Source: Qipengyuania xiapuensis
Lineage (GTDB): Bacteria > Pseudomonadota > Alphaproteobacteria > Sphingomonadales > Sphingomonadaceae
Assembly (NCBI RefSeq): GCF_019711395.1
Contig: NZ_JAIGNL010000001.1
Location: 310,001 to 374,000 of the forward strand
DNA length: 64,000 nucleotides
Direction: 5' to 3'
Below, in pieces: positions 30,957-35,914 of this stretch; position 1 is the first letter of the stretch; each line of letters begins with the position of its first letter. The notes beneath the pieces were generated by a model. It was given only the letters and a program-made list of their open reading frames with translations, was not told where the DNA came from and made no database searches. A program made the position numbers and the translations under genes.

Positions 30957-32909
30957 TCAGGCGTCGGAGAAGAAGGCTTCCTCTTCCCAGCGCTGCCAGT
31001 CGCGGTTGTAGCTGAACTCGATCCAGTCATAAGCGTTGTCGAGCACGCGCGTCTCGCGCACGCCGAATGAGTTCGACGCACCTTTCACGAAGCGGATCGC
31101 GCCGGTTGCCCCGTCCTTCACGAAACGTATGCGCTGGCCGTCGACATAGCCGTGATCGGCCCCGCCCAGCGGCGTGCGGGCAAGCGTCATGTCGGCGATG
31201 ATGCCGCTGGTCATTTCCACCGTCATGAGCGGGGCGCAGGGCAGCAGTTCGCCCGGACCCGAGACCTGCGGCAGCTTGTACCAGCCGCGCGGCCAGAAAT
31301 TGCTGGTCGGCTCGGAGGAGGCATAGGTCACGCACGGCATGGAAACCGGCGTGGCTCCGCCATGGGGCACGCCGCCACCTGCACTCGCACCGGCGACATG
31401 CAGTTCGCAGGAACGATCGATGTAGCCGGTCCAGAAACAGCCGAGCCACTGGTGGCCCTGCTCCTGCGCATAGCGGGTGCGATGATGCGCGATCCTGATC
31501 CGCGCGTTCGAGGGTGGCAGTTTGTAGATGCCTGCAGGCGCTCCCGGCACGGGTTCGGTGAGGCTGTCGACCCCGTAAAATTCCAGTGCGTGGATGCCTG
31601 TCTTGCGGTCGAGCCAGGATTCGATCGCGAGGTCGGTGTCGCGCAGCGCAAGTGCCTCTCCGCCGTTCAGCGAGATGCCGCAGTCGATCGTCCGGATGCT
31701 GCCACGCACCCAGCTGGCGAAGCGTAGCGAGCGGATGTCGCGGAATTCGCAATTCTCGAGCAGCGTGAGCGGCGGAGCAATGGTTTCGTCACGCGTGGGA
31801 TAGGCCTGCGCGTAATAGACGCCATTGGCCGAACCGCTGCCGAGCCCCATGGCGTCGCAATCGTGCCAGGTGCAATTGCGATAGATCGCACGGTTCTTGG
31901 CGACGTCTTCCTGCGCTTGGAAACAGTCGCCGAAGCTGCAGTCGACCGCGAGGATCTCTGCATCGACACCGGGATTGAGCGCGCTGCCATTGCTGGTGGC
32001 GAAGCGGCAGCGTTTGAGCTCTATCCGTTCGACCGCGTCGGCCTCGCCTGCGGTGAAGAAGATCTCGCCCTTCCAGCCGATCATGTCGGTGTCGCGGCAG
32101 ACGATCTCGCCGGCAAAGCAGTCCTGCAGCCACAGCGCCTTGTCGGTGATGTCCCAGCCGTCACCGGTCTGGGCATCGGCGGGCCACTCGTATGCGCCGG
32201 TGTGCTGGCGATTGCCCTGCAAGACCAGCCGGTCGAGTTCGAGGCGGCCGATGGAGCGGCTGCCCGCGCCGGGATCGCTGACGTCGCCCTGGAGCAGGAG
32301 GCCGCCGCCGCGCCAGACAGCGAGCGTGGGGTCGCTGCCCGATGTGGCAACCAGCTGGTAGTCGCTCTCCGGGTTCCCGCCATAGAGAGCACGAAAATCC
32401 AGCACAGTCCGTTCCGCCGCGCAGCCGCGAAGCGCAATCGAGGCGCGCACGACGAGCGGATGCCCGTCCTCGGCGCGCTTGTCCTCGGCGGGCGAGAGGC
32501 GCGGCGTGCAATGGAGACGGTAGAGATGCGCTTCGAAGCGTATCTCGCTTGCGCCGACGGCATGGGCGTGATCGATCGCGGCCTGGATCGCAGGCTGGTC
32601 GTTGACCGCACCGTCGCCAGCAGCGCCGCCTTGTTCGACCGCGAATGCACCTGCCTCGGGCAGGAGGCGGAAGATGCGCCCGTTCTCGGTTTGGAAGACG
32701 AAGCGCTGGTGACCGGCCAAAAGGGCAGCATCACATAGTGCATCGCTGATGTATCGCGCCGCGCCCTTGCCGGGCACCGCATATCCTGTCGATTCGAGGA
32801 GCGAGATATCTGCTGGCGGAGAGCGACGGGCGAGGTCGGGGAAAAGCGCGGGAAGTCCCTGCGTCGCGCGGGTGGCGAGTCCCATTGCGGGGAGGGCGAG
32901 CGCGCTCAT
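30957..32909 (-). CDS. Right-handed beta-helix protein, phage tail-spike-like
   Basis: This 650-residue protein has a pectate-lyase-type N-terminal opening (GAVNDQPAIQAAIDHAHAVG near residue 98) followed by repeating short strands with regularly spaced Cys and Asn, as in parallel beta-helices (for example IYRNCTWHDCDAMGLGSGS). The last 40 residues (DWIEFSYNRDWQRWEEEAF) look like a separate cap. Sequence style is closest to phage tail spikes and polysaccharide lyases. No signal peptide is evident, which argues against ordinary secretion. The ATG at 32909 overlaps the stop of the preceding gene by four bases. No catalytic residues can be assigned by eye. Confidence 0.72.
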   Translation of the reverse strand: MSALALPAMGLATRATQGLPALFPDLARRSPPADISLLESTGYAVPGKGAARYISDALCDAALLAGHQRFVFQTENGRIFRLLPEAGAFAVEQGGAAGDGAVNDQPAIQAAIDHAHAVGASEIRFEAHLYRLHCTPRLSPAEDKRAEDGHPLVVRASIALRGCAAERTVLDFRALYGGNPESDYQLVATSGSDPTLAVWRGGGLLLQGDVSDPGAGSRSIGRLELDRLVLQGNRQHTGAYEWPADAQTGDGWDITDKALWLQDCFAGEIVCRDTDMIGWKGEIFFTAGEADAVERIELKRCRFATSNGSALNPGVDAEILAVDCSFGDCFQAQEDVAKNRAIYRNCTWHDCDAMGLGSGSANGVYYAQAYPTRDETIAPPLTLLENCEFRDIRSLRFASWVRGSIRTIDCGISLNGGEALALRDTDLAIESWLDRKTGIHALEFYGVDSLTEPVPGAPAGIYKLPPSNARIRIAHHRTRYAQEQGHQWLGCFWTGYIDRSCELHVAGASAGGGVPHGGATPVSMPCVTYASSEPTSNFWPRGWYKLPQVSGPGELLPCAPLMTVEMTSGIIADMTLARTPLGGADHGYVDGQRIRFVKDGATGAIRFVKGASNSFGVRETRVLDNAYDWIEFSYNRDWQRWEEEAFFSDA

Positions 32910-33337
32910 TGCGAAATCCTGTAGCCAAGCGTGCCCGAAGAAATTCGGCAGTCGAGCCATAGCGTGGCGTCGCTTTCGCTTTCCTCCCAAACCGGCTCGC
33001 AGGCATTGGCGGTGAAACTGCCCCAGGGCGCTCCCGCAAGCGTGAGCGGCTGGAGGGTCGCGCCGCCGTCGATCGAGCGCTTGAGCGTGACGCTGCCCTC
33101 CCAGTCGCCCGTGAGGCTGCAATAGACCGGGGTCATTGCGGCCGGGGCAAAGGGTCCGGCGACCACGTCAGCCGTGCTCTGACCCTCGAGCGGGGCGGGC
33201 ACGCTCGGCGGAGATGCGTGGACGGGAAGCGGGCGCGCATCGGCGACGAGGGCGAGATTGCCAGTGCCATCGTCGAGGCCGAGCGCGAAGGCAGGCGCGA
33301 AGCCGCCGGGGGTCTGCAGGGGAACAGGCTCGCTCAT
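32906..33337 (-). CDS. Small beta-rich phage-tail-like protein
   Basis: This 143-residue protein has two parts: an N-terminal region (LGLDDGTGNLALVADARPLPVH) and a C-terminal beta-sandwich-like domain with GDWEGSVTLKRSIDGGATLQ, NACEPVWEESESDATLWLDC and final GTLGYRISQ. This WxGSVTxxRSxDGGAT to VWEESE pattern is familiar from phage and gene-transfer-agent structural proteins of sphingomonads, which is my recollection rather than a search result. ATG at 33337 follows AAGGA. Co-translated with the beta-helix gene. No other phage genes are near. Confidence 0.6.
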   Translation of the reverse strand: MSEPVPLQTPGGFAPAFALGLDDGTGNLALVADARPLPVHASPPSVPAPLEGQSTADVVAGPFAPAAMTPVYCSLTGDWEGSVTLKRSIDGGATLQPLTLAGAPWGSFTANACEPVWEESESDATLWLDCRISSGTLGYRISQ

Positions 33338-33446
33338 ATTTTTGGTTCCTTGATCTGATCGAACGAGCCACACCGGTTAATCACGTGCCTGCGAGTAGGA
33401 AAATGCTTTTTGGACTTCGCCTGCAACGCCGCTAGAGCGTGGTGCG

Positions 33447-34688
33447 ATGCAGGTGGCTGTCTTCCATCCCGGTACCCAGCACAGCCGCCAGACGGCTTTG
33501 GCCCTGCAGGAGCTTGGCCGGCTGGCCTTCCTCGCGACCGGACTGTTCGATCACCCCGATGAGGCTCTGCGACAGCTCGCACAGCGCCTCCCGCAAGGTC
33601 TGGCGCGGCAGGTCCAGGGGGAGCTTGCGCGCTTTGCCTTTGCCCGGTTGGACGCTGACAAGGTTCGCGCGATGCCGGCCTACGAACTGCCTGAACGAAT
33701 TGCCGCGCGACTGGGTGCTCGCCGGCTGGCAGGAATGCTGGACACGGGATTGAACCGGGCGTTCGGTCGGAAGGTCGCTGCGATGGCAGGGGCGGAGGGG
33801 CCGCTGGCGCTTTGGGGCTACGACGGCTCTTCCGCCTCGGCCTTCACCGACAGACGAACGCGCGATTGCTACAAGATCCTCGACCGGACGACAGCCGATA
33901 GCCGGTCATGGAACCTGGAGCGCGAGCGGATCGCGGAAACCCATGGCGACTGGCTTGGTGGAGGCTCGCCCGCCTGGAGCAAGCACCGCATCGAGCGGGA
34001 CGATATCGAATTCGATGCCGCCGACACCATCGTGTGCGGCAGCCCCTTCGTGATGCAGACGATCCGCGAACATTCGCCGGTGCCTGGAGTGGCCGGCAAG
34101 CTCGAACTGCTGCCTTACTGCTTCGATGCGGACCTGTTCGCGAGCGAGGAACCGATTTTGCCCGCAGCGAAAGGGGAACCGGTCCGCTTCCTGTTTGCCG
34201 GACAAGTGTCCGCGCGCAAGGGCGCGCAACACCTGCTCGAGGCCATCGAATGCCTGCCTTCCGCCGATGCGCGCCTGACCCTGCTCGGTCCTGTCGCCGT
34301 GCCGGACAAGATCCTCGCGCGGTATCGTGACCGCGTCGATATCGTCGGCCCGGTCTCGCGCAGCGAAGTCCCCGCGATCATGCGGCAACATCACGCGCTG
34401 GTGTTCCCGAGCCATAACGAGGGCTCTGCGGTCGTGCTCCTCGAGGCCATGGCTTCCGGGCTCGCCGTCATCCAGACCGCGGCTTCGGGGATGGGTGCCA
34501 GCGCAAGGAGCGGCTTCGTCCTCGAGCGTCCCTCTGCCGGACTTGTAGAGCAGGCCATGCGCAGGTTGATCGACGATCGCGAGATGCTGCAGGCGATGCG
34601 CGAAGCCGCAAAGGCAGAGGCCGCCGCGCGCGATTTCGGCGCCTATCGTGCGAGCATTGCTTCCCTGCTGGAGCGCAAGGGCATCTAG
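33447..34688 (+). CDS. Glycosyltransferase, family 4 type
   Basis: This 413-residue enzyme has a GT-B fold. The C-terminal half is canonical: VRFLFAGQVSARKGAQHLLEAI near residue 247, LTLLGPV, and HHALVFPSHNEGSAVVLLEAMASGLAVI near 316-343 with the ExxxxxxxE-type donor site. The N-terminal acceptor domain is variable. It probably adds a sugar during surface polysaccharide synthesis. ATG start, divergent from the tail-spike-like pair; its last four bases overlap the end of the next, opposing glycosyltransferase gene. Confidence 0.88.
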   Translation: MQVAVFHPGTQHSRQTALALQELGRLAFLATGLFDHPDEALRQLAQRLPQGLARQVQGELARFAFARLDADKVRAMPAYELPERIAARLGARRLAGMLDTGLNRAFGRKVAAMAGAEGPLALWGYDGSSASAFTDRRTRDCYKILDRTTADSRSWNLERERIAETHGDWLGGGSPAWSKHRIERDDIEFDAADTIVCGSPFVMQTIREHSPVPGVAGKLELLPYCFDADLFASEEPILPAAKGEPVRFLFAGQVSARKGAQHLLEAIECLPSADARLTLLGPVAVPDKILARYRDRVDIVGPVSRSEVPAIMRQHHALVFPSHNEGSAVVLLEAMASGLAVIQTAASGMGASARSGFVLERPSAGLVEQAMRRLIDDREMLQAMREAAKAEAAARDFGAYRASIASLLERKGI

Positions 34689-35914
34689 CCCAGCAGCCGC
34701 TCCAATCCTTCCTCGAAGCAATCGACCACCGACTCCTTCGACCATGCCGTGCGGGCACGCTCGCGCGCGGCATCGCCCATCGTCTTGCGATAGTCCGGAT
34801 GGGCTGTCAGCGCTTCAATGGCGGTGACGATCGCTGCAGGCGTTTCGGGCGGCACGACGATCCCGCTGCCGACGAGCTCGCGGGCAATGCCGGTCCCCGG
34901 CCTCACCGTCGCGACTACCGGCCTGCCCGAGGCGAGCATGTTGCCGAGCTTCGAGGGGAGAACGAGATCTGCAGCGTCGTGCAACTGCGGCAGCAGGTGG
35001 ATGTCGGCCATGGTCAAGAGGTCGCCCATGCGCTCTTCCGGCTGGAGGTCGTGGAAGGTCACGTTGGGCAGCCCTTGGGCAAGTGCCTCGAGGTTCTCGC
35101 GATTGGGGCCTTCGCCGCAAATGACGAAAAGCACGTCCTTGCGATCCGCCATCAATCGCGCAGCCTCGATCACCACATCGAGACCCTGCTTGTTGGCGAT
35201 ATTGCCAGAATAAAGCGCGACCGTCCTGTCGCCGACACCCCAGGCCTCGCGGTAATGCCGTCGGTCGCCACTGGCGATCGAACCCGAGTGATTGGCCCAG
35301 TTGCGCATTTCGAGGATGCGTTCTTCGGCTACGCCTTTCTCGCGAAGCAGATCGCACATCGGCTGGCTGATGGTCGAGACGATGTCTGCCGAATGCAGCA
35401 TGCGGTCCTCGAAGCGCGCGGCCGCATCCGCCGTACGGCTTCCGCGATCGATGAGCCCGGTGGCGAGCGCAGCGCCGACCTCGAAATCCTGTACGTGCAG
35501 CCACAGCGGCACGCCGGCCCGGCGCGCCATGCGCATGGCGACGGGAGCGGCGATCATGGCCGGCGCCACAGTGAACACGAGGTCCGGTTTCATCTCGCGG
35601 CGGGCCCTGCGTGCGGCCGGATAGGCGCTGCTGGCAAAGCTCGCGTGATGGGCGATGCGCCGCGAACCGGTCGGGTTGGCGGGGATGTAATGCGGGCAAC
35701 GGGTGATGTTTACGCCCGCCTCGACCGAGGATTTCCACCTTCGCTTGAAGCGCGGATAGAGTTTCCATTCGGGATAGTAGGGCTGGCCCACGATGGCGCG
35801 CACCTCGTGACCGCGCTCGACCAGCGCTTCTGCGAGACCGGCACTGTACGGCCCGATGCCGATCGGCTCGGGAGCGTAGTTCAGTCCGATGAATAGGATG
35901 CGCCGGCCCGCCAT
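34685..35914 (-). CDS. WcaI-like glycosyltransferase
   Basis: This 409-residue protein has the WcaI/GT4 N-terminus RILFIGLNYAPEPIGIGPYSAGLAE-type signature, then YYPEWKLYPRF and SGNIANKQGLDVVIEAARLM near 242 and DLVLPSKLGNMLASGRPVVAT near 330. Related proteins add fucose or similar sugars in colanic-acid-type polysaccharides. The ATG at 35914 is used; the frame extends 28 codons upstream without family similarity. Together with the facing glycosyltransferase it suggests a small polysaccharide locus. Confidence 0.88.
   Translation of the reverse strand: MAGRRILFIGLNYAPEPIGIGPYSAGLAEALVERGHEVRAIVGQPYYPEWKLYPRFKRRWKSSVEAGVNITRCPHYIPANPTGSRRIAHHASFASSAYPAARRARREMKPDLVFTVAPAMIAAPVAMRMARRAGVPLWLHVQDFEVGAALATGLIDRGSRTADAAARFEDRMLHSADIVSTISQPMCDLLREKGVAEERILEMRNWANHSGSIASGDRRHYREAWGVGDRTVALYSGNIANKQGLDVVIEAARLMADRKDVLFVICGEGPNRENLEALAQGLPNVTFHDLQPEERMGDLLTMADIHLLPQLHDAADLVLPSKLGNMLASGRPVVATVRPGTGIARELVGSGIVVPPETPAAIVTAIEALTAHPDYRKTMGDAARERARTAWSKESVVDCFEEGLERLLG

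Follow-up and report, generated by a model that had tools for sequence, protein, structure and literature searches.

Within a 64,000-nucleotide stretch of the Qipengyuania xiapuensis genome (assembly GCF_019711395.1, contig NZ_JAIGNL010000001.1, positions 310,001 to 374,000 of the forward strand; hereafter the window), two overlapping genes encode a jellyroll protein and a beta-helix protein, here called the base and the fibre. We propose, with a probability of roughly 0.7, that the pair is the unlinked spike module of a gene transfer agent (GTA) regulon of the Sphingomonadaceae, comparable with the head spike GhsA/GhsB and the tailspike TspA of the Rhodobacter capsulatus GTA (RcGTA), and that it has been orphaned in this genome. 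GTAs are domesticated virus particles through which marine bacteria exchange DNA. The fibre open reading frame (ORF) has 650 codons on the minus strand, from an ATG at 32909 to a stop at 30957 (30957..32909), and the base ORF has 143 codons on the same strand, starting with an ATG at 33337 (32906..33337). The two share the bases ATGA at 32906-32909, and both frames are intact. An initial annotation had described a 650-residue beta-helix protein and a 143-residue beta-rich partner overlapping by four bases, and both the ORFs and the structural models agree with it.

The AlphaFold model of the fibre, built from a 24-row alignment, has a mean predicted local distance difference test (pLDDT) of 87.9 and a predicted template modelling score (pTM) of 0.87. 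It is a right-handed beta-helix of the tailspike and mannuronan-epimerase fold with an uncertain N-terminus. The top structural match is 5lw3 (Z 30.6, 3.4 Å over 352 residues); the mannuronan epimerases AlgE6 and AlgE4 score 30.6 and 30.4, the polysaccharide lyase RbmB 27.9, and the tailspikes Sf6 and K5 lyase 26.2 and 25.0, and the model was also searched with Foldseek. The fibre thus has the same fold as the tailspike depolymerases Sf6, HK620, Fri1 gp49 and K5 lyase; these, however, are phage-encoded and show about 9-13% identity to it in alignments, and the likeness is one of fold. The base model, from a 23-row alignment (alignment A1 keeps 23 of the 24 rows and leaves out the broken copy of genome G003), has a pLDDT of 83.7 and a pTM of 0.66, with a jellyroll in residues 40-143 and a poorly predicted stretch of 45 residues at the N-terminus. 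Its top match is the prophage protein YomS (Z 10.6, 4.1 Å over 102 residues). At Z 7-9, phage baseplate, cement and turret proteins are mixed with unrelated jellyrolls, and the role of the base is therefore not fixed by its fold alone. SPBc2 YomS, the KHP40 cement protein and the HFTV1 turret have the same jellyroll fold but no sequence match to the base by profile, and we know of no fibre paired with any of the three. The Foldseek list for the base model held no match at E 0.001 or below, and no RcGTA base was named among the rows shown. Family libraries name neither protein: the fibre gave only sub-threshold pectate-lyase and tail-spike matches and the base no usable match.

The pairing of base and fibre extends across the family. 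Base relatives were found in 24 of 60 Qipengyuania genomes. Of 298 genomes of the family, 50 have one, with a score above 100 bits in 43; the family counts of the base given below take these 43. A pattern scan of named genomes found 33 loci in Qipengyuania/Erythrobacter, Novosphingobium, Croceicoccus, Allopontixanthobacter, Actirhodobacter and other Sphingomonadaceae/Sphingomonadales, together with one labelled Actinobacteria that is probably mislabelled and is counted among the 33. All 24 base-bearing genus genomes have the four-base overlap with the fibre gene. Among the named loci it is present in 24, the fibre lies 4-6 bases further on in 5, and a scripted search found no ORF of more than 150 codons at the fibre's place in 4 (L083, L086, L087, L088). 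The fibres have similar N-termini, of the style M-S-x-x-D-x-x-A-R-G-L-A or, in Qipengyuania, MSALALPALGLA, and vary beyond them between beta-helix, SGNH-like and short modules (module names by eye). In Qipengyuania the window's type of fibre accounts for 23 of the 24, two of which are truncated; the remaining one, in G012, is a 443-residue protein of another type. Similar N-termini with diverse C-termini form the pattern expected of a docking peptide with exchangeable receptor-binding parts, and the short conserved stretch MSALALPAMGLA at the fibre N-terminus is our candidate for the dock onto the base. This N-terminus is conserved and of low confidence in the model; MSALALPAMGL resembles the RcGTA fibre peptide in style only. 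Separately, G117 carries a deletion remnant of the pair (L039:1440-1692), in which the first base codons run into the C-terminal end of the fibre, with a stop between.

The pair is tied to the GTA by a candidate operator. An imperfect inverted repeat, TAACC-GGTGT-GGCT (33366..33379, minus strand), lies 28 bases before the base start. It is a relaxed version of AACC-N5-GGTT, a repeat that relatives carry at the GTA cluster, the DUF6456 gene and the holin gene. AACC-N5-GGTT stands upstream of the GTA cluster in all five clusters scanned (L057, L059, L060, L061 and L062; a sixth capsid locus, L058, has no g15 and was taken for another element), and the inverted repeat AACC-N5-GG[T/C]T occurs within 160 bases before the base in 24 of the 33 named loci. 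The strict operator, AACCNATTTGGTT, has 75 sites in 48 of the 60 genus genomes, against 1 for a reversed-pattern control. Seventy sites were inspected: 26 are at a GTA cluster, intact or decayed, recognised by YqaA and/or the small terminase; 23 precede a DUF6456 gene, 57-83 bases from its start (PF20057, 1.3e-40 for one tested); 7 precede GTA_holin_3TM, 25-34 bases from its start (PF11351, 7.5e-27 for one tested); 1 precedes the base at 28 bases; 5 are near an Fe-S assembly gene; and 8 are elsewhere, at least 4 of them in coding sequence. The other 5 of the 75 were placed by coordinates: 4 are found 11-14 kb upstream of GTA g15, and the fifth is at the pair in G014. Proteins homologous to GafA carry the annotation DUF6456 or helix-turn-helix (PMC9638019; PMC9765227), and in Caulobacter, GafY with integration host factor activates gafYZ, the GTA cluster and about 18 accessory promoters (PMC11150451). 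The operator thus appears to define a regulon of the expected make-up, namely GTA cluster, GafA-like gene and holin, with the pair in it, under a putative regulator that would express it together with the GTA. A second conserved element, TTTTCCTAC-N15-TAACC (33375..33403, minus strand), overlaps the operator; it matches once in the window and never in 100 shuffles, and a slightly shorter form precedes the base in 22 of the 24 base-bearing genus genomes.

The GTA itself is decayed in this genome (G000; 2.71 Mb in two contigs). The pair is at C1:341-343 kb, and a truncated GTA cluster, delimited with the gene order of relatives as guide, lies on the second contig at C2 ~832-835 kb (L285:12109-14887, where L285 is C2:820000-839999). 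It runs from YqaA through a decayed operator, a small-terminase remnant, the large terminase (65% identical to the G013 enzyme over 489 residues) and a partial portal gene to the usual post-cluster gene. The portal gene has an in-frame stop after 95 codons and aligns over only 169 of 384 residues. In contrast to a whole RcGTA-like GTA, the genome has no PF05065 capsid and no g15 match, and its remains would probably not suffice to build a particle. Since the cluster breaks off inside the portal gene, the pair survives here as an intact orphan.

Several results weigh against assigning the pair to the GTA. A tightly coupled particle part should co-occur with the GTA, yet none of the counts departs from chance. 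The pair shows INDEPENDENCE from the GTA: among genus genomes, 14 of the 24 that carry the base and 22 of the 36 that lack it have g15 (P = 1.0, counting the fragments in G041, G054 and G056), and in the family the figures are 32 of 43 and 189 of 255 (P = 1.0, weak matches included). PF05065 capsids are found in 12 of 24 genus genomes with the base and 25 of 36 without (P = 0.18). At the operator, the strict form precedes the pair in only two genomes (G030, G014). The window's copy differs from it in the spacer and the right arm, this GGCT arm being common in close relatives, and the copy at the genome's own GTA remnant is likewise decayed (TAACCTATTTGGCA). Nine of the 33 named loci yielded no relaxed repeat, the TTTTCCTAC part of the promoter element is absent from all six capsid loci, and loose patterns match four places off the GTA promoters in those loci (L058, L060, L061, L062). 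DUF6456 and holin genes were not found in own-genome stretches covering about a tenth of the genome, and a guess at their place by synteny did not lead to them. The base profile found no sequence match among PDB chains; no sequence similarity to ghsAB was detected, RcGTA sequences not having been compared directly.

We attribute the lack of co-occurrence to frequent and recent GTA losses that left the pair behind. Of the ten base-bearing genus genomes without g15, seven (G000, G003, G010, G012, G014, G019, G037) have a GTA site, recognised by YqaA and a match to the small terminase, the other three being outside this inspection; the lack of g15 in G037 is uncertain, as its assembly is in 290 contigs. 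On a fibre tree of 21 of the 24 rows (without G012, G011 and G052), full-length g15 needs 7 changes, against a shuffled mean of 7.1 (297 of 500 shuffles as low), and 6 of them are forced by well-supported branches. For this tree, G054 and G056, with g15 fragments, were labelled as lacking the GTA, and G031, without a PF05065 match, as bearing it. Two other GTA markers were discarded: GTA_TIM matched 0 of 60 genomes though GTA clusters are present (the g15 of L060 matches Rcc01698_C and Phage-tail_3), and PF05065 alone was poor, some genomes matching it but lacking g15.

Two R. capsulatus systems offer close parallels. The genes ghsA and ghsB (Rcc01079, jellyroll base; Rcc01080, fibre) lie outside the GTA cluster (PMC7296036, PMC10218006), and base and fibre are likewise adjacent and outside the main cluster here. 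In RcGTA the fibre is held by a short hydrophobic peptide at its N-terminus, whose alternating (iso)leucines sit in pockets of the base; this has been shown there (PMC7296036, PMC10218006) and is only proposed for the present fibre. The RcGTA fibre has 325 residues, compared with a 650-residue beta-helix here, and its spike sits on capsid vertices, whereas this pair is known from genes alone and its own genome is without a particle. By gene number, the head spike fibre gene rcc01080 is followed by rcc01081-01086 for capsule synthesis (PMC10218006); the present pair adjoins glycosyltransferase genes. Head spike, tail fibre and lysis genes of R. capsulatus are late-stage GTA genes outside the cluster (PMC9638019). 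The second parallel is TspA (Rcc02623), a GTA-regulated right-handed beta-helix with a beta-sandwich partner domain, again encoded outside the cluster; this detachable tailspike leaves the particles, and the purified protein degrades biofilm (PMC13420450). That report describes TspA as absent from phages except for a short cap region, and as present in Rhodobacterales and lacking in other Alphaproteobacteria (PMC13420450). TspA unites an N-terminal beta-sandwich of its own with the beta-helix in a single chain, whereas base and beta-helix are separate, overlapping genes here, and we liken the two by description.

With such precedents, a spike fibre gene numbered next to capsule genes and an unlinked TspA, we do not read the pair as a new system, as the initial annotation suggested. 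That annotation also took the pair to stand alone with no phage gene near. In the neighbourhoods read it does lie outside any prophage, and the ORFs read at 24-42 kb fit the second statement (the whole window was not scanned against a phage library); but the genome holds the truncated GTA cluster on its second contig, and in relatives the operator also stands at the GTA cluster, the DUF6456 gene and the holin gene. The central picture of the annotation, spike proteins of phage or GTA type that have a polysaccharide-active fold and surface-sugar genes as neighbours, is borne out by the models and the neighbourhoods. We see the pair as a probable Sphingomonadaceae counterpart of the unlinked GTA spikes already known, distinct in architecture, operator and linkage to sugar genes. 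In the open-access papers searched we found no description of this pair or operator, nor of GTA, Sphingomonadales and capsule together, and 'head spike' does not occur in the main texts of PMC9765227 and PMC9836097. Cell recognition by Sphingomonadaceae GTAs is likewise without a description that we could find there, and the pair provides candidate recognition proteins.

Sequence, structural models and linkage suggest how regulator, docking, particle position, sugar binding and catalysis might fit together. A regulator would bind the AACC-N5-GGTT operator and, in relatives with an intact GTA, switch on base and fibre together with the GTA. The jellyroll base would dock on the particle and hold the fibre by its N-terminal peptide, and the pair would be released by the same lysis as the GTA. 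The fibre would bind, and probably cut or remodel, the surface polysaccharide of the producer species, and the spike would thereby help particles to attach to, or pass through, the polysaccharide made by the neighbouring glycosyltransferase genes.

Those neighbours are GT1, a GT4-type glycosyltransferase (33447..34688, plus strand) that diverges from the base, and GT2, a WcaI-family glycosyltransferase (34685..35911, minus strand). Two such genes had been annotated as beginning 110 bases away, which is true of GT1, measured from the base start, but not of GT2, which converges with GT1 and starts about 2.6 kb off. Immediately upstream of the base, 22 of the 24 base-bearing genus genomes have GT1 or GT2, whereas G012 has a different glycosyltransferase-like gene and G031 has none (by eye). 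In the genus, 14 of the 24 base-bearing genomes have a close GT1 relative (>400 bits), compared with 0 of the 36 others (P = 1.1e-7, genomes counted without regard to kinship). Left out of these counts are three weaker matches of 294-300 bits that lie elsewhere than at the pair, in G010 and G012, which have the base, and in G016, which does not; with them included, the figures are 16 of 24 and 1 of 36. On the fibre tree GT1 needs 3 changes, against a shuffled mean of 6.1, and 1 of 500 shuffles is as low. GT1-like and GT2-like clusters occur at 22 each of the 33 named loci (by eye). Outside the genus, 92 ORFs (some spurious) round the pair at 18 loci include 27 Glycos_transf_1, 7 LptA/LptD_N, 7 epimerases and 2 bacterial sugar transferases. 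The linkage could be functional or simply due to shared ancestry of the locus. A bolder version, which we regard as speculative and on balance doubtful, is a linked lock-and-key cassette: a spike deciding which cells receive GTA DNA would be co-inherited with a glycosyltransferase shaping the polysaccharide that the spike recognises, so that exchange is steered to kin in a greenbeard-like manner, and after GTA loss the spike would survive as a particle-free polysaccharide enzyme. In any case, the linkage makes the question of who receives GTA DNA genetically testable.

Some of the same data suit a domesticated tool that works without a particle, that is, a soluble depolymerase or adhesin released at lysis and kept with the glycosyltransferases whose product it trims. 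The absence of association with g15 and the linkage to GT1 both favour it, and the detachment of TspA and the biofilm degradation by purified TspA offer a precedent (PMC13420450). Both genes are undamaged in 8 of the 10 base-bearing genus genomes that lack g15, compared with 13 of the 14 that have g15 or a fragment. Pairwise ratios of nonsynonymous to synonymous substitution rates (dN/dS), available for the 33 of 276 pairs of genomes whose base identity is at least 0.66, are 0.10-0.31 for the base and 0.06-0.32 for the fibre, the truncated G052 fibre excepted (0.50 and 0.67). These values do not prove function without the GTA, because they average the time before and after its loss. GTA losses, moreover, look recent and scattered, so intactness may be a time lag, and two of the broken copies, a stop inside the G003 base and a truncated G011 fibre, have appeared without g15 (the third, the truncated G052 fibre, is in a genome with g15). 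A soluble enzyme would seem to have no need of the base; no secretion signal was seen in the pair, its sequence read by eye without a predictor; and the operator is shared with GTA genes. We consider a particle-free tool unlikely. A pure relic, in which remains of an ancestral prophage drift next to glycosyltransferase genes that have nothing to do with them, would account for the decayed GTA cluster, the deletion remnant in G117 and the 3 broken copies among 24 in the genus. It is hard to reconcile with the intact frames in the window's genome, dN/dS well below 1 and a promoter element kept in nearly all base-bearing genomes, and we give it little credence.

Phage relatives of the base are distant. 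It gave a single weak partial match (E 0.6) in 50,697 phage records and none in 72,556 plasmid records, and the fibre gave none in the phage records. In IMG/VR a first scan with a narrower alignment found no base relatives, and a second with a wider alignment found 21 loci with distant ones; a profile from ten of these matched the base family at 99.4% (E 5.3e-21). These relatives occur in head and in tail modules. The jellyroll gene is downstream of the major head protein with few small genes between in L120 and L115, about 1 kb before a head-tail adaptor in L116, after tail protein J in L106, and downstream of a tail sheath gene in L114. The spike of another particle, a prophage or tailocin using the locus in trans, would fit these module positions and the presence of the pair in genomes without g15, but it is the least probable of the explanations, given the near absence of the base from phage and plasmid records, the absence of the fibre from phage records, the absence of a PF05065 capsid from the own genome (sheath, portal and other capsid families were not searched there) and a fibre tree that follows GT1 rather than particle presence. 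One of the 21 loci, L103 (IMGVR_UViG_3300012856_000041), on a contig listed as viral, has base and fibre beside dTDP-sugar and other host-like genes and is probably host chromosome.

If the pair is indeed the spike module of the GTA regulon, the candidate operator joins the GTA cluster, the GafA-like gene, the holin and the spike in a single unit, and genomes with the GTA intact, decaying or lost form a natural series for asking what a spike does without its particle.

The operator and promoter searches also gave some results that stand apart. As a regulon motif in its own right, TTTCCTAC-N15-TAACC was rejected: beyond the 22 pair sites it matched 7 others, against 2 for the reversed control, with no common target seen. 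At L159 and L177 it lies between convergent genes near the same acyl-CoA-dehydrogenase-like gene, either by chance or marking an unrecognised transcript. Five of the 70 inspected strict operator sites (L221, L255, L268, L271, L272) are about 0.7 kb from an Fe-S assembly (PF01883) gene, with no directly downstream gene recognised. At 21 of the 23 operator loci with a DUF6456 (GafA-like) gene, for example L237 and L235, that gene is flanked by a GT4-type glycosyltransferase.

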